NCBI RefSeq assembly: GCF_015326965.1
Contig: NZ_CP017659.1
Coordinates: 3,162,001 to 3,226,000 of the forward strand
DNA length: 64,000 bases
Direction: 5' to 3'
Origin: Paenibacillus sp. JZ16
GTDB lineage: Bacteria > Bacillota > Bacilli > Paenibacillales > Paenibacillaceae
Both the position numbers and the translations under genes were made by a program. Each line of letters opens with the position of its first letter. Positions within the stretch are counted from its first letter, which is position 1. Below are positions 2,433 through 13,297 of the stretch, in pieces. The notes below the pieces were generated by a model. It made no database searches and was not told where the DNA came from. It saw only the letters and a list, made by a program, of their open reading frames with translations.

Positions 2433-4085
<1,653 letters not shown>

Positions 4086-4123
4086 TTATGAAATAGTGAA
4101 ACAAAGATATATTCAGGCGTTCA

Positions 4124-4405
4124 TTAGCCTAAGATCGCGTGGATGTCGCTTTCTTTCATAATCAAATATTCTTTACCTTCGTATTTGATTTCTGTTCCAG
4201 CGTATTTGGAGAAAATGACGCGGTCGCCTTCTTTAACTTCCAAAGGTACACGTGCGCCGTCTTTCAGGGAGCCACTGCCTACAGCAATAACTTTACCTTC
4301 TTGCGGCTTTTCTTTAGCAGAGTCAGGAAGTACAATCCCGAATGCCGTAGTTTCTTCTTGTTCGATCGGTTCTACCAATACGCGTTCACCTAAAGGTCTG
4401 ATCAT
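4124..4405 (-). CDS. groES: Co-chaperonin GroES (Hsp10)
   Basis: The 93-residue co-chaperonin caps the GroEL ring. It starts [15 protein letters not shown], has the mobile-loop region around [20 protein letters not shown], and contains the family segment [14 protein letters not shown]. An AAAGGAGG box precedes the ATG. It is the first gene of the groES-groEL operon and lies directly behind the CIRCE operator. Confidence 0.98.
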
Positions 4406-4459
4406 GAAAAAATAGCCTCCTTTAAATATGTTGTGATGCTTTTTTCAAAGCTTTATGTA

Positions 4460-4526
4460 TTAGCACTCGACAACCCTCAGTGCTAACAACCAATTTTATG
4501 ATACTCAAGTTGTCTTAAAATTTCAA
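4460..4526 (-). promoter_or_regulatory. groESL promoter with CIRCE (HrcA) operator
   Basis: The inverted repeat at 4460-4486 matches CIRCE (TTAGCACTC-N9-GAGTGCTAA) with one mismatch. Upstream on the minus strand, -35 TTGAAA (4521-4526) and -10 TATCAT (4498-4503) are 17 bp apart. The operator covers the transcription start region, as expected for repression by HrcA and release on heat shock. Confidence 0.92.
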
Positions 4527-4568
4527 GTCCTTTGCATGATTTTTTGATCATTTTTTTGCAATCCGGCC

Positions 4569-4589
4569 TTAGGGAGGGGTTGTCCCTAA
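4569..4589. other. Short perfect inverted repeat, no assigned role
   Basis: TTAGGGA and TCCCTAA flank a 7-nt loop in the gap between the groES promoter and the pnkp terminator. It has no T-run, so it is not a standard terminator. The rest of this gap shows nothing else I can name. Confidence 0.4.
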
Positions 4590-4689
4590 ACCCCCTTCTC
4601 CATTGTATCCATGACCAGCTAAAATATGCCTGAGTCTTAAGGGACACTGTGCGGCTGGAACTATAGATCCAGTCATCATTCTCGGAAAA

Positions 4690-4748
4690 TAAAACAGCCC
4701 GAAATCAGGGCCCTCCCTTAGGAAGGGTGCCATCTTTCAGACTGTTTA
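4690..4748 (-). terminator. Terminator of the RNA-repair operon
   Basis: A compound hairpin has outer arms AAACAG (4692-4697) and CTGTTT (4742-4747) around GC-rich inner stems. On the minus strand it is followed by TTTTATTTT. It lies just past the pnkp stop codon. Confidence 0.6.
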
Positions 4749-4778
4749 ACGTTCAGCGAAATGTCCGTCCCCCATCGC

Positions 4779-7394
4779 TTAAAGCCTAGGGTCGATTTCC
4801 TTTTCTTTCTCCATCTCGAACAGCAGCTGCATCGCAATCGCTTGGTAATCCCCGTGGCTCGGGGAAATCTCGTCATACTTTACCCCAAGCATGCGCTTTC
4901 CAAGCTGATGCTCGGCGATCGAAGTGCGGAGCTTCTTGTGCGTGTTTTTTTGTTTCAACAGCTTCGCGTATTTATGCGGAAACCGGTAATCGTAACCGTA
5001 AATGATCGAGAGATATTCGGGATTTCGCACCTTTAGGTAAGGGGCAGCGTTCTCCCGCTCCTTTTCCGGTTTGATCACAACGCCTTCCATTCGGTTCCGG
5101 GTCGTCAGCGTGGAGAAGAAAGCCTCCGCCTGTTCATAGCTCTCCCGCTCACGCAAATCCAGAACCAGAATCTTGTCGTCATTCAGGAAACGGAACATGG
5201 CCGAGGTATTCATATCAGGCATGACTTCTTCTCCGGTATCCCGAATTTCTTTCAGAATGGCAAACGGCTTGTAATCCAATTCCGCGTCCCCCGCATAAAG
5301 TTCGAGCTGCTTCTTGTACATGCGATAAGCTTCCTCATGCTTCTCGAGCGGCACATAAGCTTTCCGAACTTCCCGTATATATTTATACGATTGATAGCTG
5401 CTCGAGCCATGCTTCTCTATAAGCGCGGACTTGGATAGTCGAAACTGTTCATTCTCAAAGCCGCTTGCGTCATAGGCAGTGAGCAGCTGAGCGTAAGCCT
5501 CCTCAAAACCCGTCTCTTTCAGAAACCTTGTTTCCGACTCAAGCGCAGCCGCAATCGGTTGAAATTGCCTGTCGATCAGGCCTTTCCCGAGTGCCCTCCA
5601 TGGCAGCAGCTCCCCATCCAACAGCATCATTTCGATCCCTTGGGCCTGCATATGAGGCGAAAATCTCTCCAACAGCCGTTCGTACACCACAGATAAATCA
5701 ATCCCGCTGATTCGGTAACCGTTACGGCTGACGGCATAGCAGCGCTTAAGGTCCCGGAACAGATAGATGCTGCATCTGGAGCCCATATATTTAGGCTGGA
5801 GCACCACATGTTCAATCCCTTGGTCCTTGTAATAATCGAGTCCTTTTGCGAGGGACTCCAGTTCTCCCTTAGCCAAATCCTTATCCGCCGGCGACATCGT
5901 TCCGGAAATAAAATTGATTTTATGCTCCGCGCAATACAACAATCTTCGCTGGGCTTCGCGGTCTAAATCCCGAAGATCGATGCTGCTGCGCTCTGATCTG
6001 GCAAATAAATCCGGCAATTGTTCATGAAGGAACACAGGGTCTTGTTCCCTAAACGGCGACTTAAAGCTGCGATAGACCGGTTTTTGACCGATTTGAACGG
6101 CCGTCAGCATATGCCCGTGCACACTTCCCGTATCGATGTGAATTTTGTTCTTGATCCGAAACGGTCTCACCGCGGCGACATGACCGAACACATGGTAAGG
6201 ATGATTGCTGACCGCTTCTTCGCTTAAAAATAGAAGCTGCTGCTCAGTCGTGACTTCCGGGTTGCTCCGTTCCAGACGGAAGGAACGCTGATGGCGCAGG
6301 GAATTCGAGTCGAGTTTACCGACATATTTATTCCGGCAAGGAGCATGGGTTACGTAATAGGAAGGTCCCTGCTGTCCCACATATCGATAAAATGGCTTAG
6401 CCCGGCCTACAAGTTCATCGAAGCGCTCCCGCAGCGCTTCATCTTGGCCTAACGTTTCCGTAGAATCAAAGTAGGAACGCAGCAGCTCCGGCTCGGCCCC
6501 CTTGATCTCTCCCTTCAGGTACTTATAAACGAAGTTCTCATGATTCCCCATAACGAAAAGGAAATGCTCCATATTGTCGTAGAGGAAATCGATCATGGCC
6601 CGGGTTTGCTTCCCTTTGTCGATCCAATCCCCGGCCAGAATGATCCGGGTGTTTCGCAGTTTCTCCGGAACGGATAACTTTCCGTCCGTCATCCCGTAAC
6701 CATAACTCCTCAAAAGCCCCTGAAGCGCGTCCACACGCTCGTGCACGTCTCCGATCACAATGTATTCCATATCCTGACTCAGAATCGAGGACAGATACTC
6801 CTCTTTATTGTCCACAATCACTTCGTAAGCAGGTTTCGCCAACTCCTTCTCCTTGTTAAGAAAATCCTTCGCACGCACTTTATGAATGGCATCGTATCCT
6901 TCCCGTGCGAGGACGGGGAGCACCTCCTTTTTCAAGCGGCTAATATGCGTGGATATCAGCTTCTTGGAGCGATCGGAGGCGTAGTAATCCTCCCGTTTCC
7001 GGTAATCAAACAGAATGACTTCCACACGGTAGTTGTTCTCATGCGCGATTTCAAGGACCTTGCCCCGGAAATCATCGGCCAATGCCGTTGTATCCACTAC
7101 AACAAAGTCAGCCTGAATCGGAAAAGAAGTCGTCAATCTAAGCCGCTCAAATAATAACTGAAACGCATGCGAGCTCGCCTCCAGCATCACCTGATCGTAT
7201 TTATCATAATCATAACCGAGCAGCTCCTGACGAATGGCGTCCGATGATAGGTACTGGACATTGCTCCTGTAGTTGCGCTCAGGGTATTCCCACTGCAAGG
7301 ATGGAATCAGGATTTCCTTCGCAAACGTCGTTTTTCCGCACTCTGTCGGACCGACCAGCATAAAAATCGTATGCATTTTGGTATGCAATTCCAT
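4779..7394 (-). CDS. pnkp: Polynucleotide kinase-phosphatase-ligase Pnkp (RNA repair)
   Basis: Bacterial Pnkp is a three-domain end-healing and sealing enzyme that repairs RNA cut by ribotoxins. The kinase domain has P-loop GPTECGKT (residues 15-22) and SSDAIRQE. The binuclear metallophosphatase has GDVHERVD, GDWIDKG, GNHE and GHVAAVRP. The ligase/nucleotidyltransferase domain has the lysine motif KYMGSR, LLDGELLPW, EGVVIKPEK and YLKVRNPE. At about 871 residues it matches known Pnkp proteins, and all three active sites look intact. The start at 7394 is preferred to upstream codons: GGGGGAG lies 7 nt before it and it sits 4 nt after the hen1 stop. It is the last gene of the rlaP-hen1-pnkp operon. 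Confidence 0.93.
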   Translation of the reverse strand: MELHTKMHTIFMLVGPTECGKTTFAKEILIPSLQWEYPERNYRSNVQYLSSDAIRQELLGYDYDKYDQVMLEASSHAFQLLFERLRLTTSFPIQADFVVVDTTALADDFRGKVLEIAHENNYRVEVILFDYRKREDYYASDRSKKLISTHISRLKKEVLPVLAREGYDAIHKVRAKDFLNKEKELAKPAYEVIVDNKEEYLSSILSQDMEYIVIGDVHERVDALQGLLRSYGYGMTDGKLSVPEKLRNTRIILAGDWIDKGKQTRAMIDFLYDNMEHFLFVMGNHENFVYKYLKGEIKGAEPELLRSYFDSTETLGQDEALRERFDELVGRAKPFYRYVGQQGPSYYVTHAPCRNKYVGKLDSNSLRHQRSFRLERSNPEVTTEQQLLFLSEEAVSNHPYHVFGHVAAVRPFRIKNKIHIDTGSVHGHMLTAVQIGQKPVYRSFKSPFREQDPVFLHEQLPDLFARSERSSIDLRDLDREAQRRLLYCAEHKINFISGTMSPADKDLAKGELESLAKGLDYYKDQGIEHVVLQPKYMGSRCSIYLFRDLKRCYAVSRNGYRISGIDLSVVYERLLERFSPHMQAQGIEMMLLDGELLPWRALGKGLIDRQFQPIAAALESETRFLKETGFEEAYAQLLTAYDASGFENEQFRLSKSALIEKHGSSSYQSYKYIREVRKAYVPLEKHEEAYRMYKKQLELYAGDAELDYKPFAILKEIRDTGEEVMPDMNTSAMFRFLNDDKILVLDLRERESYEQAEAFFSTLTTRNRMEGVVIKPEKERENAAPYLKVRNPEYLSIIYGYDYRFPHKYAKLLKQKNTHKKLRTSIAEHQLGKRMLGVKYDEISPSHGDYQAIAMQLLFEMEKEKEIDPRL

Positions 7395-7398
7395 GGCC

Positions 7399-8664
7399 TT
7401 ACTCCCCCTTCCTCGTAACAATCATTCCCTGCGTTGTATGCATGCCGTCCACACTGTCACCGATCATCACATACTCATATTGAACGCCCAGATTCTGCAG
7501 GATTTCGTCACACCACGATCTAAACTTCTCCTGCCCCATTTCCCACTTATGATCATCATGCCTGAAACCATCGAGCTCATAATACGGGTTGAAATCGGCA
7601 TTGGGCGTCGTAATGATCAGCTTCTCGAACCGGATCTCCTGCACGACTTGGCGGATGAGGTCCGCCGCTTCCGCTTCCGGCATATGCTCGATCACTTCGG
7701 TCAAAATAACGTCTACGGACTCATCGTCATACCCCTCAAGAAAGTGAGCGATCGACGGAAAGGTCACCAGATTGTCCAGCCCCTTCGCTTCCGCTTTACG
7801 CTCTACCACTTCCAGCAAAGCTTCATTAATATCTACCGCATAATAGGTTTCCTCTATTTTTCCGGCAAAAGAAAGGGCGTAAAAGCCTTCACCGCAGCCG
7901 ATATCCAATATCGGCTTGTTGAATGGCAGCACTTGAGCGATGTAACTTCTGCGCTGCATAGCCGTGTTTCCATATGCAAAATTGATGCTGTATCTAGGCG
8001 TAAACTCAAGCTCCTGCTTGAACTGCTTGAATCGATCCCGATGATTCAGAAAATTGCGCACGAACAGACTTCGTATGTAGTAGGGGGCATCGATGACATT
8101 CAGACTGCGAATGTGCTTTTCAAGCACTTTATCCGAGGTATCGAGATATTCGCTCCCGAACATTGCCAGGAACAGGCACAACACATTGACCGTATGCAGC
8201 AGATGGTACAGGCTCTTCCCGGTGGTTATGGTGAGGGCATAGCTTTTATGGGCTTCGTGCCGAAGCAAGAACGAGTATTCCTCGAGATGCTTTTGAAAAA
8301 ATTCAATATAACGCGTCTTCTCAATATGAATGAGATTGATGTAAAAAACATGCTCGTGTCCCTCCGTGTCCCGTTCATCGTGCTTTTTGAAGGGAGCTGC
8401 AAAAAACTCGTTAATGGCAGCCAGCGGAAACAAAGGTGTATTATAACGGGACACGTTCAAATACTCGAAGCTCTCCCCTTGGTGCTGTTTGAAGGATATC
8501 TCGTTATCCGCATCCTTGAAATACACGTTAAACGCAGCTGACTCGGAATACCATCCGTATGCCGTTCCTTGCCTCACGCTCCGAAGCTGCATGCCGGAGT
8601 TCGGGTTCTTCTTCATGAGAAACGAAAACTGCGGATTCGTTGATGTGAGCTGTATAATTGCCAA
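7399..8664 (-). CDS. hen1: RNA 3'-terminal 2'-O-methyltransferase Hen1
   Basis: Bacterial Hen1 methylates the 2'-OH at the cut RNA end so that the Pnkp-sealed junction resists renewed cleavage; its N-terminal part also activates the Pnkp ligase. The N-terminal half is the Hen1-specific domain. The C-terminal half is a SAM methyltransferase with LDIGCGEGFYA (SAM site), the metal motif TEVIEHM, and FRHDDHKWE containing the further metal-binding His. The protein has 421 residues. The start is a TTG at 8664 with AGGAGAGA about 8 nt upstream. It lies 18 nt after the RlaP-like gene and 4 nt before pnkp, so the three are surely co-transcribed. Confidence 0.92.
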   Translation of the reverse strand: MAIIQLTSTNPQFSFLMKKNPNSGMQLRSVRQGTAYGWYSESAAFNVYFKDADNEISFKQHQGESFEYLNVSRYNTPLFPLAAINEFFAAPFKKHDERDTEGHEHVFYINLIHIEKTRYIEFFQKHLEEYSFLLRHEAHKSYALTITTGKSLYHLLHTVNVLCLFLAMFGSEYLDTSDKVLEKHIRSLNVIDAPYYIRSLFVRNFLNHRDRFKQFKQELEFTPRYSINFAYGNTAMQRRSYIAQVLPFNKPILDIGCGEGFYALSFAGKIEETYYAVDINEALLEVVERKAEAKGLDNLVTFPSIAHFLEGYDDESVDVILTEVIEHMPEAEAADLIRQVVQEIRFEKLIITTPNADFNPYYELDGFRHDDHKWEMGQEKFRSWCDEILQNLGVQYEYVMIGDSVDGMHTTQGMIVTRKGE

Positions 8665-8682
8665 AATGACTCTCTCCTTTCG

Positions 8683-9501
8683 TCAAACCGTGAATGACTG
8701 CGGTCCACCGGTTCCCCATGCTTCAACCAGCGCGTCCCGAAACAAAGCATCCAGCCTTTGATCCAGATCCGTATCTTGATGCTTCTTATCCTTGGCTAGC
8801 AGCTCATATTCGTTCAATTTCTCTTCAATGAATGCATTAATGTTAGGAAGCCTCGGTTCAACATTCATCTCTTCACCTGAACGTTTGCGGAGAAGCAATT
8901 GATCAATCTCCTGTTTCAGCGCACTTCCCTGATTTAATAGGCGATTCGTAAGCAGCTCGAATTCCATGGGAGGCATCTCGTTGTAGGTTTGAATCCAGTC
9001 GCATGCCAGGATCGGACGCAGGACATAGAAATATTTTTTGATCTTAACGTCTCCCCCTTGCAAATACATCCGGTAATTGCCTTTAGCCATGTTCAGGTAG
9101 TGGTGCATGCAAGATTTTGGCGAGAACGCAAGCGGAGATATGCTGCGGATTTGCTGGGCGATGCCAAGCGTCTCCTTATACTTGATGGGGGACTCCAGCC
9201 ATTCGAGCAGGGGCGGATTCGACTTGCGAAAAAGCCCCAGCGCTTTTTTCAAATCCCAACCGCTCATATCCAGCCTGTCACTGATCGGCCGCTCAATCAC
9301 ATCTCGCTTGTCGAAGATCGATAAATACCACTCCACGGGTCTGATATAGATAAACCTTACGTCATAATCGCTGTCTGTCGACGGAAAGCCCCAGGCCCTG
9401 CTGCCTGATTCGCAGGCATACAGGATAAGGACGCCTTCCTCCCGCTCAATTCGCTCAAGTTCTTGCTGAATCGTCGAATTCATTTCCTGCGATATATTCA
9501 T
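8683..9501 (-). CDS. RlaP-like Pol-beta superfamily nucleotidyltransferase
   Basis: This is a minimal nucleotidyltransferase of the COG3541 type that is recurrently linked to RNA-repair genes. The catalytic signature is ACESGSRAWGFPSTDSDYDVR (residues about 29-49), giving the GSRAWG loop plus the D-x-D metal pair, followed by RFIYIRP and an alpha-helical C-terminal half. I place the start at the ATG at 9501, where GAAGGAGAGA precedes it, rather than 40 codons upstream; this gives 272 residues. It is the first gene of the repair operon. A role in adding nucleotides to damaged RNA ends is inferred from context, not shown. Confidence 0.78.
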   Translation of the reverse strand: MNISQEMNSTIQQELERIEREEGVLILYACESGSRAWGFPSTDSDYDVRFIYIRPVEWYLSIFDKRDVIERPISDRLDMSGWDLKKALGLFRKSNPPLLEWLESPIKYKETLGIAQQIRSISPLAFSPKSCMHHYLNMAKGNYRMYLQGGDVKIKKYFYVLRPILACDWIQTYNEMPPMEFELLTNRLLNQGSALKQEIDQLLLRKRSGEEMNVEPRLPNINAFIEEKLNEYELLAKDKKHQDTDLDQRLDALFRDALVEAWGTGGPQSFTV

Positions 9502-9643
9502 ATCTGGTATCTCTCCTTCTGTAGCTGCCGTCTGATGTCCGATAACCTTATTGTCCTCCACACGTTCCAATTTCAACAGGGCGAAAGTATGGCGATAACA
9601 AAAAGATGTTATAATTTCCATCCTTTATGCAGTTCCCTATCCT

Positions 9644-9652
9644 TGCTACAAT
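9644..9652 (+). promoter_or_regulatory. Candidate extended -10 promoter for the WYL genes
   Basis: TGC followed by TACAAT forms an extended -10 in the 203-bp divergent region between the repair operon and the WYL regulators. No good -35 is visible. An imperfect palindrome, AAAGATG...CATCCTTT (9602-9626), lies just upstream and could be an operator. No convincing minus-strand promoter could be assigned. Confidence 0.35.
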
Positions 9653-9704
9653 AGTTACAGACAGCATCACGTACGATCTAATATATGACTTGAAGGAGGG
9701 CGCC

Positions 9705-11036
9705 ATGGCTCGGGAAAGCTTCGATAAAGAAATCCAGTTCCTTCGCATTCTGGCGCTGGCCGGAGGAGCATACAACCGGCAACAACTGGCCGATCGACTC
9801 GGTATTTCGGTACATACCTATGACAAAACGCTTCGAAATTTAAAAAATAGGATTGAATCGCTTCAGCCGCAGCTCTCGGAAGAACAAAGTCTCACCCTAT
9901 CCGAAGGCCTGCGCTATTCATACTATGAAACCGCAGATCCGCTCCTGCTGCTGTTGTTCCGCGGCAAATCGCTTAAGGCATCGGAAAGCTTGAGGCTGTC
10001 CACGATCCTCACCCAGCTGCAGCATCAGCAGTTAACCGCCAAAGAACTAATCGACCTATGCGGCGATCACTTGCCTGACGGGGAGTCTCTGCCGGATGAG
10101 AAGACGATACGCAGAGATCTCAAATACCTGGAGGAAGTCGGAGTCATCGTGAAGACAGGCACAGACCGGCCTTACCGATACAGGGGCGCCCGTGATCTGA
10201 TCGATTCGTTGTCGGATGACGAGCTGCTTGATCTCTACGACTATGTGGACGTCATGTCGAATACGCAGATCCCGTCCGTGCAGGGTTATATGCTCAGGGA
10301 TAACTTAAAGCGGGTTTTGCGGAAGCGTGACATCGCTGCGCACTCAACCGCTGCTTATATTTATAAATATCATTATCCTTCACGCATATTGGACGAAGCG
10401 CATCTGCATACCATTTTTCAGGCCATTACCAAAAGAGCTAGAATCCGATTCCTGTACTTATCACCCAAAAGCACTTCACGCTATGCTTCCCAAAATACGA
10501 ATCCGCTGTTCCACAGGGAGTCCAAAGGGCTTCGGGAAACGGTGCTGCCGCTGCGCGTGATATATGACCATCAATACGGCCGTTGGTATCTGATCGGTTA
10601 TAACGGCAGACAAGGTCTCATGAAGTTTCGTATGGAGGGATTGACTCAGATCGAAGAAGGCGATGTGGTTAAGGAAGAGGTCTTCCAGCAGCGCCTGGAG
10701 GAGGTGCTGGCCGAATTCGAGAATAGTTGGGTTACCGATACCCGTAATCCCACCAAGGTCGTGGCCAGATTTTTTAACCCGGAGGACAGCAAAGTGAATT
10801 TCGTGCTGAACCGGGTTAAGGCGCAAGGGCAATGGGGGACCGTTACGATAGAATCCGACGATTCATTTCTATATGAAATCGAAGTGAACGGCACCAGCGA
10901 AATCAAGCCCTGGCTCCGGAGCTTCGGCTCCAGCTGCGAGGTGCTCAAGCCCCGCTCCCTTCGCCTGGAGTTCATCAAGGAATGGAAGGAGATTGCCGCT
11001 TATTATGAGCCAGAATCCATTCGAGAAAATTTTTAA
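9705..11036 (+). CDS. HTH and WYL domain transcriptional regulator
   Basis: WYL proteins are regulators, thought to sense nucleic-acid-related ligands, that often control defence or repair loci. The N-terminal helix-turn-helix reads NRQQLADRLGISVHTYDKTL. A second winged-helix-like segment includes DEKTIRRDLKYLEEVGVI. The C-terminal WYL domain carries GRWYLIGYNGRQG. I choose the ATG at 9705 because AAGGAGG lies about 6 nt before it; the upstream in-frame codons have none. It has 443 residues. It is divergent from rlaP-hen1-pnkp and overlaps the next WYL gene by 32 nt, so it is the obvious candidate to control the RNA-repair operon. Confidence 0.85.
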   Translation: MARESFDKEIQFLRILALAGGAYNRQQLADRLGISVHTYDKTLRNLKNRIESLQPQLSEEQSLTLSEGLRYSYYETADPLLLLLFRGKSLKASESLRLSTILTQLQHQQLTAKELIDLCGDHLPDGESLPDEKTIRRDLKYLEEVGVIVKTGTDRPYRYRGARDLIDSLSDDELLDLYDYVDVMSNTQIPSVQGYMLRDNLKRVLRKRDIAAHSTAAYIYKYHYPSRILDEAHLHTIFQAITKRARIRFLYLSPKSTSRYASQNTNPLFHRESKGLRETVLPLRVIYDHQYGRWYLIGYNGRQGLMKFRMEGLTQIEEGDVVKEEVFQQRLEEVLAEFENSWVTDTRNPTKVVARFFNPEDSKVNFVLNRVKAQGQWGTVTIESDDSFLYEIEVNGTSEIKPWLRSFGSSCEVLKPRSLRLEFIKEWKEIAAYYEPESIRENF

Positions 11037-11844
11037 TTATCAGATTATGACGCGGCTTGAGGAAACTGACTCGATTGCCATAACCGCTCAAGAACGGGGA
11101 TGGCTCAAAATGATGCTGGTGCACCCTGAGGCAGCTAACGCCTTTACGCCTGAAACCTTAATGCGTCTCGAACAAATCCTTCACATGGAGCATAGCGGTG
11201 CCGAGATGAAGGAGATTATCCTGGAGAAGGCCAAGGGACAGGAACGAAGCGTATATCACCCGCATCTTCGCACCTTGCGAAGAATGATCATGCAGGATCA
11301 GGGCTTTCGCTTAAGCTATCGAACGAAGCTCGGAGAAACGCGCAGCAATCAGTCCGGTTTCCCGTTCAAATTGGAGTATTCCATGATCAAACGGGAATGG
11401 ATGCTGATCTGGTACAGCAAAAGCCGAAGAGGACTCATGTACACGAAGCTGGATCATATTCTATATATCCAAGGGACCTCACTTCCGTCTTTTCGAATCG
11501 ATCGCATCAAGGAACGGCTGCAGAATCTGATGGAAAATCGCGAGAAGCAAGCCCTCATTGAAATCCATCGCCGATACAACGGGGAATTGTCACGGATTCT
11601 GTACGCTTTCTCCTGTTTTGACAAGACCGTCCATTATGATGAAGATTCCAATACCTACCGCATTAAAGTCTCCTATTTGAAGGATGAGTGCGACTTTCTG
11701 CTCTCCCGTATTCGCTTTCTCGGACTGCGGGTAAAAGTCGTGGAAGGAAACACGCTGCAGGCCCGAATGCAGGAAACCGCAGCGATGGCGCTGGCTAGAT
11801 ATGCGCAAGATGAACGTCAGGACGATATGAATAGATCCCTATGA
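11005..11844 (+). CDS. Second WYL-type protein, possible co-regulator
   Basis: This protein of about 279 residues resembles the WYL half of the preceding protein, with REWMLIWYSKSRRG in place of the WYL core and a following WCX-like C-terminal region. The N-terminal part lacks a clear helix-turn-helix. It may act as a partner of the first WYL protein rather than bind DNA alone. The ATG at 11005 lies inside the upstream gene, whose stop is at 11034-11036, so translation is likely coupled. A TTG at 10993 is an alternative start, but it sits too close to the AAGGAG at 10985-10990. Confidence 0.7.
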   Translation: MSQNPFEKIFNYQIMTRLEETDSIAITAQERGWLKMMLVHPEAANAFTPETLMRLEQILHMEHSGAEMKEIILEKAKGQERSVYHPHLRTLRRMIMQDQGFRLSYRTKLGETRSNQSGFPFKLEYSMIKREWMLIWYSKSRRGLMYTKLDHILYIQGTSLPSFRIDRIKERLQNLMENREKQALIEIHRRYNGELSRILYAFSCFDKTVHYDEDSNTYRIKVSYLKDECDFLLSRIRFLGLRVKVVEGNTLQARMQETAAMALARYAQDERQDDMNRSL

Positions 11845-11903
11845 GACCTGGAGCGAATGCACTTATGAAATTTGATTTCTAACCATTCGATCCTCCAACA
11901 AAA

Positions 11904-11951
11904 AACAACCCGCAAACCATACTCCCGTGGGGATTGGTTAAGCGGGTTGTT
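11904..11951. terminator. Bidirectional terminator between WYL2 and tatC
   Basis: The long stem AACAACCCGC/GCGGGTTGTT has T-rich sequence on the plus side and an A-run, which reads as T on the minus strand, on the other. It serves both convergent units. Confidence 0.8.
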
Positions 11952-11985
11952 CTTATTCTAAGTAATCCTATTTTTCCAAAAAACG

Positions 11986-12777
11986 TCACATTCCATCCTC
12001 TTCGTCTACCCGTATGTACCGGCTGTCCCGTTCCATGTCCGCCTCTAGCTGCTTGCGGTAGATCACGGAAGACAGAAACACGCTGAATTCGTACAGCAGC
12101 AGCAGCGGAATCGTGACCAGGAAATCCGATATGAAGTCCGGCGGCGTAATGACAACCGCGATGAATACGAGCGCGAAATACGCGAGTTTGCGCATTTTTC
12201 GAAGCCGCAGCGGATTCAGAATGCGAATTTTCGTTAAGAACATCACCACAAGCGGCAGCTCAAACAACAAGGCCAGCGGCAATACGAGATTGAACATAAA
12301 ATTCAAGTAATTGGTAATTCCGTAGGTTTCCTGAAGCCCCATGCTCTGGGTAATCGTTGTCGTGAATGACAGCGTCATCGGAAACACGACGTAATATCCG
12401 AACGTGATCCCTACAATGAACAGAAGAAACGCATAAGGCACGTAACGAATGGCCGCTTTCTGCTCTTCTTTGCGAAGTCCCGGCTTGACGAACGCCCACA
12501 GCTGATAGAAGATCAGCGGAACGGAAATGACAAGCGAGAAAATGGCAGCGATTTTCATATAGATCCCGATACCATCCCAGAAGGAGAAGGCGTGCAGCTC
12601 AAAGTTCTTGGCTTCTTCAGCCGCCGTCAAATAATGATAGATCGGGTCCGCAACAAAAAGCCCGCCGATCAAACCCGCTACGAATACCACGAGCACAATA
12701 ATAATTCGTTTGCGAAGCTCGCCCAAATGCTCAACAAGCGCCATATCTTTCACTTGCTCCGACAAGTTAACCACCAC
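11986..12777 (-). CDS. tatC: Twin-arginine translocase subunit TatC
   Basis: TatC is the membrane receptor for twin-arginine signal peptides. It is 263 residues long with six predicted membrane spans. The family's N-terminal helix reads LVEHLGELRKRII, with FYQLWAFVKPGL and the periplasmic-loop FPMTLSF segment further on. The C-terminus is acidic and ends RVDEEDGM. The start is uncertain: GTG at 12777 (weak box) or ATG at 12744 (GGAG about 12 nt upstream). It lies downstream of tatA, separated by a hairpin that may reduce readthrough. Confidence 0.93.
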   Translation of the reverse strand: MVVNLSEQVKDMALVEHLGELRKRIIIVLVVFVAGLIGGLFVADPIYHYLTAAEEAKNFELHAFSFWDGIGIYMKIAAIFSLVISVPLIFYQLWAFVKPGLRKEEQKAAIRYVPYAFLLFIVGITFGYYVVFPMTLSFTTTITQSMGLQETYGITNYLNFMFNLVLPLALLFELPLVVMFLTKIRILNPLRLRKMRKLAYFALVFIAVVITPPDFISDFLVTIPLLLLYEFSVFLSSVIYRKQLEADMERDSRYIRVDEEDGM

Positions 12778-12793
12778 CCTGTATGTGACCCTG

Positions 12794-12823
12794 ACAAAAC
12801 AAAATCCCTCCCGAAGGAAGGGA
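12794..12823 (-). terminator. Hairpin between tatA and tatC, possible attenuator
   Basis: The stem TCCCT-CC/GG-AGGGA (12805-12823) is followed on the minus strand by ATTTTGTTTTG. Lying inside the tatA-tatC unit, it could act as a partial terminator that makes tatA more abundant than tatC. Confidence 0.55.
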
Positions 12824-12843
12824 CTTCAAGCCTTGCTTTATTT

Positions 12844-13080
12844 CTATTCCGGAAGACGCTTGTCTTCAACCTTGGTTGGCTCAGCGACAACGGCTTGTTG
12901 GGGAGCCTCTTCTTTCTTCTTCGCCGGTGCATCGTCAGCAATAATCTCCCGCGCACCGTCCTTAAACTCACGGAATGTTCTTCCGACCGCACGTCCAAGT
13001 TCAGGAAGCTTGTTCGGTCCGAACAAGAGCAGCGCCAAAATAACGAGCAAAATAATACCCGGCACTCCAATTCCACTCAT
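12844..13080 (-). CDS. tatA: Twin-arginine translocase subunit TatA
   Basis: TatA is the pore-forming Tat component. It has 78 residues, with one N-terminal membrane helix (IILLVILALLLFGPNKLPEL), the FGPNKLPE hinge, an amphipathic helix AVGRTFREFKDG and an acidic/basic tail. The start at 13080 is chosen because GAGGAGGAG precedes it and it gives the usual MSGIGVPG N-terminus. A 25-codon upstream extension has no membrane or targeting logic. It is the first gene of the tat pair. Confidence 0.93.
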   Translation of the reverse strand: MSGIGVPGIILLVILALLLFGPNKLPELGRAVGRTFREFKDGAREIIADDAPAKKKEEAPQQAVVAEPTKVEDKRLPE

Positions 13081-13297
13081 ATCTATTCTCCTCCTCGTCC
13101 TGCTCAATGCCTTTAAAAGGACTTCAGGATGATCTAAATCCGTCATGCCTTGCACTACAACAGGTGTTAACTAATGACCATAATCCGACTACTACAGTTG
13201 AAACAAGCTCATATACCGCCATCATACCATAATGTAAATCACATATACAGTCTAGAAACGTGACAGTTTATTTACATAATTATCTAGTAGATACTCT

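Follow-up and report, generated by a model that had tools for sequence, protein, structure and literature searches.

A candidate WYL-controlled RNA-repair cassette with a mosaic Pnkp-Hen1 module in Paenibacillus sp. JZ16

A stretch of 64,000 nucleotides from Paenibacillus sp. JZ16 (contig NZ_CP017659.1, positions 3,162,001 to 3,226,000; hereafter the window) carries a cassette of five genes, in which rlaP, hen1 and pnkp face two genes for WYL-domain regulators, here called WYL1 and WYL2. The cassette is probably, at a probability of roughly 0.7, an inducible RNA-repair unit of a WYL-controlled regulon, operated through a PafBC-like WYL1/WYL2 activator on a 24-bp box. Judged from the sequences, this box precedes Hen1-Pnkp, RlaP, RtcB, Ro60 and Band-7 genes as well as tRNA arrays, which looks like a WYL-controlled RNA-repair regulon.

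A minus-strand RlaP-Hen1-Pnkp operon opposite two overlapping WYL genes, with a divergent gap of 203 bp, had been described in an earlier reading made from the sequence alone (the sequence-only reading), and this layout is borne out by the families and by an open reading frame (ORF) check of the window, which confirmed the coordinates of all five ORFs. The operon is read in the order rlaP, hen1, pnkp with gaps of 18 bp (rlaP/hen1) and 4 bp (hen1/pnkp), and WYL1 and WYL2 overlap by 32 bp. The features are as follows (PWM, position weight matrix; HTH, helix-turn-helix).

4779..7394, minus strand: Pnkp-like protein with kinase, phosphatase and ligase in one chain (ORF call and Pfam; ligase nearest Rnl, 4xrp_B)
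4887..5921, minus strand: Rnl-class RNA ligase domain of Pnkp, residues 501-845, motifs KYMGSR, EGVVIK and KVR (Pfam)
6177..6764, minus strand: calcineurin-type phosphatase domain of Pnkp, residues 220-415 (Pfam; nearest solved chain 4j6o_A)
6999..7364, minus strand: kinase domain AAA_33 of Pnkp, residues 20-141, P-loop GPTECGKTT (Pfam)
7399..8664, minus strand: Hen1, RNA 3'-terminal 2'-O-methyltransferase with an N-terminal domain of the class of the 4xrp Hen1 (PF22032; 4xrp_C match)
8683..9501, minus strand: RlaP, Pol-beta-type nucleotidyltransferase, start ATG 9501 (PF10127; AlphaFold model)
9502..9704, no strand: divergent intergenic region with the operon promoter (ORF positions)
9550..9555, minus strand: putative -10 of the rlaP operon promoter, GACAAT, whose distance to the box is the fixed one
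9573..9596, plus strand: 24-bp conserved box, proposed WYL operator, PWM score 31.0, centre at about -41.5 of the operon promoter
9705..11036, plus strand: WYL1 regulator with an N-terminal HTH region (weak matches), WYL and WCX, start ATG 9705
11005..11844, plus strand: WYL2 regulator partner, WYL fold, lacking a Pfam match, start ATG 11005

The box upstream of WYL1 reads C-GAACA[TG]GG[CT][GA][AG]AAGTAT[GT][AG]CGA-C, and many of its positions are invariant. After short or duplicate regions had been dropped, 84 of 87 WYL1 upstream regions were compared with the box seed, and 79 of them matched it at 16 or more of 22 positions, whereas base-shuffled regions reached at most 15. In four of the five exceptions (L173, L175, L057 and L062) the box lies further away, ahead of repair genes; in the fifth, L178, no box was seen, nor any of the repair partners RlaP, RtcB, Ro60, Band-7 and Hen1-Pnkp. 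Run over 2.57 Mb of base-shuffled sequence, the box PWM gave no match scoring 11 bits or higher; the shuffles of both tests preserve base composition only. The exact pattern is present in 183 of 295 sampled genomes of the family (reversed-pattern control, 0) and in 42 of 388 genomes of a class-wide sample (control, 0), where, outside the window's family, it occurs in f166 and in single genomes of f145, f163 and f170. Exact boxes in Bacilli outside the family were seen chiefly in f166, and also in G698, G774 and G849. The box of the window itself has one mismatch to the exact pattern. Because the reversed control is as frequent as the pattern in the JZ16 genome at up to three mismatches (six and five matches, respectively), only the three one-mismatch matches were considered there.

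The box stands at a fixed distance from a promoter element. After identical or clipped flanks had been removed, 143 boxes were cut to 140 and then to 139, and 135 of these have a sigma-A-like -10 element (NANNAT; GA[AT][AG]AT) at an offset of 18-23 on the operon side; no other offset from 8 to 33 exceeds 33 of 139 boxes, and no -10 at fixed spacing is found on the WYL1 side. No recognisable -35 was seen at the operon promoter. Based on the fixed -10, taken to end at -7, the box covers about -53 to -30 and is centred near -41.5. In the window, the rlaP transcript is predicted to begin near 9543. Class II activators bind near -41.5, and the box looks like such a site in its placement.

The regulators are a tandem pair. 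WYL1 matches the Pfam domains WYL (29.7 bits) and WCX (44.0 bits), and its N-terminal HTH is weak (HTH_11, 22.4 with a cut-off of 25; HTH_DeoR, 21.3 with a cut-off of 21; no single stretch passes). WYL2 gave no Pfam and no HTH match, and it scored 38.9 bits with the PADLOC WYL profile. The FR-loop arginine is conserved in 42 of 42 WYL1 sequences; of 42 WYL2 sequences, 22 have K at the same place, 17 have R and 3 have P. Two adjacent WYL proteins, as in PafBC, were found in all 40 loci picked by WYL1. The AlphaFold model of WYL2 (predicted local distance difference test, pLDDT, 82; predicted template modelling score, pTM, 0.53; low-confidence N-terminus) is nearest PafBC and DriD, with template modelling (TM) scores by query length up to 0.48, and BrxR and CapW stand lower in the same list. 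PafBC (passages of PMC11804915) and DriD are described as WYL activators working with single-stranded DNA (ssDNA), and from this analogy we infer that the cassette may be induced by an RNA-damage signal; single-stranded RNA (ssRNA) is bound by another WYL protein. Passages of PMC9122601 describe BrxR, a WYL regulator, as a repressor, and a WYL pair that represses from the box over the -35 region until freed by a ligand would also block RNA polymerase from -53 to -30. However, the lack of a usable, correctly spaced -35 suits an activator-dependent promoter, fixed box/-10 spacing is not required for repression, and the WYL2 model is closest to activators; repression is thus rather unlikely.

Regulator and box also travel together. 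Across the 295 family genomes, a strong WYL1 and an exact box are both present in 179, WYL1 only in 26, the box only in 4 and neither in 86 (P = 3e-45, kinship ignored; 28 weak WYL1 matches scored as absent). A strong WYL1 is found in 78 of the 81 genomes with this Hen1 versus 127 of 214 others, and in 76 of 81 cases no more than 450 bp separate the box from the WYL1 start. The box could instead be the site of another regulator or of an alternative sigma factor, with the WYL pair a mere passenger of the regulon. The box-only genomes and the boxes with no WYL gene nearby would fit such a view, but the co-occurrence counts and the closeness of the box to WYL1 argue for the WYL pair, and 24 bp is long for a sigma -35; we regard this explanation as improbable. 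The earlier proposal that the WYL pair regulates the cassette is strengthened by the conserved box, the co-occurrence and the fixed -10 spacing, which make the pair the likely regulator.

In loci picked by Hen1 or WYL1 (a few genomes counted twice), 142 boxes were checked for repair-set genes (Hen1, RlaP, Ro60, Band-7, RtcB, DUF6847, c23 or tRNA) at distances up to 2.5 kb: on the operon side 139 boxes have such a gene, on the opposite side 0. Even where neither WYL1 nor RlaP was in view, the box was present within 600 bp upstream of Hen1 in 16 of 30 Hen1 loci. Another 40 boxes away from WYL1, picked by hand among the matches listed, keep the fixed -10 in 37 cases; the first labelled gene is Band-7 in 20, RlaP in 3, RtcB in 2, c23-RtcB in 2 and Ro60 in 1 (28 in total), and the rest precede P707 (7), a family of about 310 amino acids (4) or an unlabelled gene (1). 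Since boxes precede many repair genes, also far from WYL genes, the cassette appears to be one output of a WYL regulon.

Several observations concern single members or candidates. The c23 family, of about 500 amino acids and no confident domain match (e.g., L033 8473-9972), recurs with RtcB and RlaP under the box. A second box in the JZ16 genome (L234 7841-9964) is ahead of the 707-amino-acid protein P707, which scores 495 bits with NF041916 (cut-off 600) and is near the SCO0854/MXAN_6230 family. At L235 (5009-10876), a one-mismatch box precedes a 217-amino-acid protein with an RNLVEH motif that we read as HEPN-like; it was rejected as a regulon member because its score is only 20.9 and its -10 is displaced by 2 bp. 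Nearby are a SIR2 gene and other putative HEPN genes, which makes this a probable defence island. Band-7 ORFs often begin some 430-700 nt past the box, and the long box-to-Band-7 leader of L268 (1166-1247) has weak YrlA and tRNA matches. Just upstream of Ro60 in L172 (8815-8890) is a YrlA-like Y RNA match of 40.8 bits (gathering 69). In eight loci (L048, L051, L053, L058, L060, L066, L069 and L073), Hen1-Pnkp stands by NADAR and PARG-type genes with no box at Hen1; there the box is some kb downstream, ahead of DUF6847-Band-7. The abstract of Burroughs & Aravind 2016 is said to name Band-7/TROVE scaffolds and a tRNA-like RNA.

Because Hen1_N of the 4xrp class was present in only 2 of 398 genomes of a phylum-wide sample, its distribution was studied within the family, where 81 of the 295 sampled genomes have it. 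The Hen1 homologue search used the best 120 of 841 matches, and the named Hen1-chosen loci are the best 80 of 176 found, from relatives including Paenibacillus, Cohnella and Brevibacillus. Pnkp follows Hen1 in all 80; 40 of these loci show RlaP in view and 44 show the WYL pair. RtcB, Ro60/TROVE, KptA, NADAR, PARG-type and ADP-ribosylglycohydrolase families also occur in these loci. To lessen the circularity of a choice based on Hen1, 40 loci were chosen by WYL1, by hand among the matches listed, in genomes outside the 81 with this Hen1 class. In view there were RlaP in 32, RtcB in 24 (with identities to the reference of just 27-30% in some), Ro60 in 12, Band-7 in 12 and a classical Hen1-Pnkp pair in 4 (L187, L200, L207 and L211), all four passing the classical cut-offs. 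These partners indicate that the two Hen1-Pnkp classes and RtcB alternate in the same setting. The JZ16 genome itself gave no RtcB match, in a search that was positive in 9 of 14 control genomes, and no TROVE match.

The sealing module is, by sequence comparison, a mosaic, with a ligase and a Hen1 nearest the Pnkp1-Rnl-Hen1 class and a calcineurin-type phosphatase as in classical Pnkp. Pfam scores within the single Pnkp chain are 116.7 bits for PNKP_ligase, 40.6 for Metallophos and 30.0 for AAA_33, and Hen1 has Hen1_N (PF22032, 329.8 bits) and a methyltransferase domain. Against solved structures, the ligase third of Pnkp scores 189.6 bits with 4xrp_B (Rnl) and at most 53.1 bits with other ligase chains, and Hen1 matches 4xrp_C along its full length (query residues 3-419, 122.6 bits); we take 4xrp to come from Capnocytophaga and to belong to the paper PMC4411300. 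The phosphatase has 4j6o_A as its nearest solved chain (31.5 bits), presumably the phosphatase of the classical Clostridium thermocellum Pnkp. Thus the window module shares with the classical system the kinase, metallophosphatase and ligase in one chain, and with Pnkp1-Rnl-Hen1 the Rnl-class ligase and the Hen1 class. A separate T4Pnkp-like Pnkp1 was not found: the phosphatase is fused and calcineurin-type, and no T4Pnkp-type chain is among the 13 matches at E up to 1.

The sequence-only reading had pointed to the established Pnkp/Hen1 repair of ribotoxin-cut RNA; the RNA-repair cassette stands, and membership of the classical system is ruled out by both equivalog scores. TIGR04075 gives 185.1 bits on Pnkp (cut-off 750; two stretches, of which the better covers the ligase part, 500-880) and TIGR04074 gives 79.7 bits on Hen1 (cut-off 340; one stretch, the methyltransferase part, 235-412). 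That this is merely an ordinary Pnkp-Hen1 system with nothing new, as the same three enzymatic domains and Hen1 within one operon could suggest, is therefore very improbable. Moreover, the true classical pairs under the same box pass the cut-offs that the window proteins miss by far, which separates the two kinds of Hen1-Pnkp. The Pnkp looks active, judging from its signature residues: 76-78 of 78 aligned Pnkps, counting that of the window, retain those of kinase, phosphatase and ligase, with the kinase P-loop residues G24, E27, C28, G29, K30 and T32 and the phosphatase motifs GDxH, GDxxDxG, GNHE and GH conserved in 78 of 78; the exceptions are a few variable neighbours inside the motifs.

RlaP matches PF10127 with 334.6 bits (cut-off 23), its catalytic GS/DxD residues G33, S34, D45 and D47 are conserved in 35 of 35 sequences, and its AlphaFold model (pLDDT 88) has a nucleotidyltransferase fold. 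According to passages of PMC7824862, RlaP is an RNA-repair nucleotidyltransferase linked to RNA ligases, and as cited there and in PMC6514570, Burroughs & Aravind 2016 predicted the repair chemistry, including the restoration of lost nucleotides by RlaP. This putative role is thus an already published prediction and not new here. Another role is conceivable, in which RlaP makes an (oligo)nucleotide signal sensed by the WYL pair or modifies another molecule: it is the commonest partner in the WYL1-chosen loci (32 of 40 versus 24 for RtcB and 12 for Ro60), and its model resembles aminoglycoside nucleotidyltransferases and HalB, whose PDB entry shows oligodeoxyadenylate. However, the literature ties RlaP to RNA ligases, rlaP lies downstream of the box, and none of the Foldseek matches listed exceeds a TM-score of 0.51 by query length; we consider such a role quite unlikely.

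Transfer RNAs are the likely substrates of the cassette, since in some relatives this box also stands ahead of tRNA arrays. Eleven relatives have tRNA genes beside repair genes within 3.5 kb downstream of a box, in operon direction, numbering up to 14 (L172); those for His(GTG), Gln(TTG), Glu(TTC), Asn(GTT), Pro(TGG) and Trp(CCA) are found repeatedly. A twelfth relative, L079, has one tRNA after Pnkp, which may be unrelated. Arrays of 2-14 tRNAs stand between the box and Ro60, RtcB or other repair genes in L172 (9669-11006), L033, L036, L037, L046, L054, L174 and L175. The tRNAs of L172 are 72-88% identical to other matches in their genome and therefore not recent duplicates. Next to a tRNA-repair system, tRNAs that are spare or resist nucleases would be plausible.

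On the proposed mechanism, WYL1 and WYL2 would form a PafBC-like heteromeric activator that binds a ligand signalling damage, probably pieces or ends of RNA. The signal-bound pair would then bind the 24-bp box, at the promoter geometry observed, and recruit sigma-A RNA polymerase to a promoter that has no recognisable -35. By homology, the phosphatase and kinase of Pnkp would convert 2',3'-cyclic phosphate and 5'-OH ends to 3'-OH and 5'-phosphate ends, RlaP would replace missing nucleotides at the 3'-OH, Hen1 would protect the mended 3' end from a second cut by 2'-O-methylation, and the ligase domain of Pnkp would seal the RNA.

Several points weigh against this interpretation. The P value given above is too small, because the genomes are related and the counts are not independent. 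A strong WYL1 lacks an exact box in 26 genomes (JZ16 among them, with its one mismatch), 4 genomes have an exact box but no strong WYL1, and 14 of the 30 Hen1 loci with neither WYL1 nor RlaP in view have no near box. RlaP also accompanies RtcB, a ligase for 3'-phosphate ends that does not depend on a 3'-OH. In passages of PMC11804915, PafBC uses a -26 motif and not a site near -41.5, and the box, at about -53 to -30, departs from that motif; PafBC was also not activated by ssRNA there, which weakens a simple carry-over of its ligand to the WYL pair.

The cassette is flanked by groESL on one side and tatC on the other. Ten groES-tatC junctions were surveyed out of 20 relatives with a TatC match; nine of ten are empty, at about 0.3-0.5 kb (L214-L222), and the tenth, in G688 (L213 9363-11830), the closest relative by TatC (93%), holds decayed pieces of Hen1, RlaP, WYL1 and WYL2 and no box scoring at least 15. 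P. faecalis (L223) has a full cassette at the groES-tatC site. Most simply, the sequences suggest that the cassette was present before these species split and later decayed in one. The earlier view of an acquisition at a conserved site is thus upheld as far as gain or loss at groES-tatC is concerned.

Two starts in the operon are open to choice. The RlaP ORF runs open to 9621 (8683-9621, minus strand), and ATG 9501 is most likely its true start, because the median RlaP ORF of the relatives has 266 amino acids and the conserved box would lie inside the extension. The Pnkp ORF is open up to TTG 7421 (4779-7421), and ATG 7394, 4 bp past the Hen1 stop, is the likelier start. An RNA gene hidden in the 203-bp gap was ruled out, since an Rfam scan of 4000-13200 gave only chance-level matches and no tRNA was found in the window. 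Generic scans of the cassette gave 7 promoters versus a shuffle mean of 9.4 and 7 terminators versus 7.6; with no excess over shuffles, no terminator is claimed.

To our knowledge, little is known about the induction of RNA-repair genes outside the RtcR and TrcR systems, although such genes are widespread in bacteria. Literature searches gave no paper on the box, the regulon or the mosaic, with Burroughs & Aravind 2016 covered through citing papers only; as far as these searches show, the mosaic, the operator and the regulon are new, and the outlines of the enzyme content and of the RlaP idea were known before. It is an even proposition that relatives of Paenibacillus, together with some other Bacilli, have a response dedicated to RNA damage, the counterpart of the PafBC DNA-damage response, in which a two-subunit WYL activator would sense cut tRNA and, through one 24-bp operator, would switch on exchangeable ligase modules (mosaic Pnkp-Hen1, classical Pnkp-Hen1, RtcB), RlaP, Ro60, Band-7 and replacement tRNAs. 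Two distinct Hen1-Pnkp classes occupy the same slot under one control site. A single sharp operator allows the whole RNA-repair regulon to be listed from sequence, including P707, c23 and the family of about 310 amino acids, and raises for the bench the question of the ligand of the WYL pair.

Among known systems, classical Pnkp-Hen1 (TIGR04075/TIGR04074) resembles the window in its three domains in one chain, Hen1 in the operon and a phosphatase of the 4j6o kind, and differs in the N-terminal class of Hen1 and in the equivalog scores. Pnkp1-Rnl-Hen1 is alike in Hen1 and ligase; however, in the part of PMC4411300 seen, Pnkp1 is a separate T4Pnkp homologue and hen1 is far from the pnkp1-rnl operon, whereas in the window the calcineurin-type phosphatase, kinase and ligase are fused and hen1 is in an operon with rlaP opposite a WYL pair. 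The diverse RNA ligases with RlaP of Burroughs & Aravind 2016 (via passages of PMC7824862) share a PF10127 protein adjoining an RNA ligase; the citing passages mention no WYL box or regulon. RtcR-RtcBA is likewise an inducible RNA repair system with Rsr (Ro60) and Y RNA (passages of PMC7790460), but it is under RtcR control (CARF, sigma-54), and the window genome has no RtcB match. The Anabaena TrcR regulon holds a similar gene set, with rtcB, a slipin gene and a tRNA array repressed by TrcR, and this repressor is of the ribbon-helix-helix type, its site being short and unlike the box (excerpts of PMC10272220). Finally, PafBC and DriD share with the window regulators the WYL fold, the tandem pair in the case of PafBC, and the activation of a damage response, but they sense ssDNA and DNA damage, with the -26 motif in PafBC, whereas here the targets are RNA-repair genes and the box lies near -41.5.

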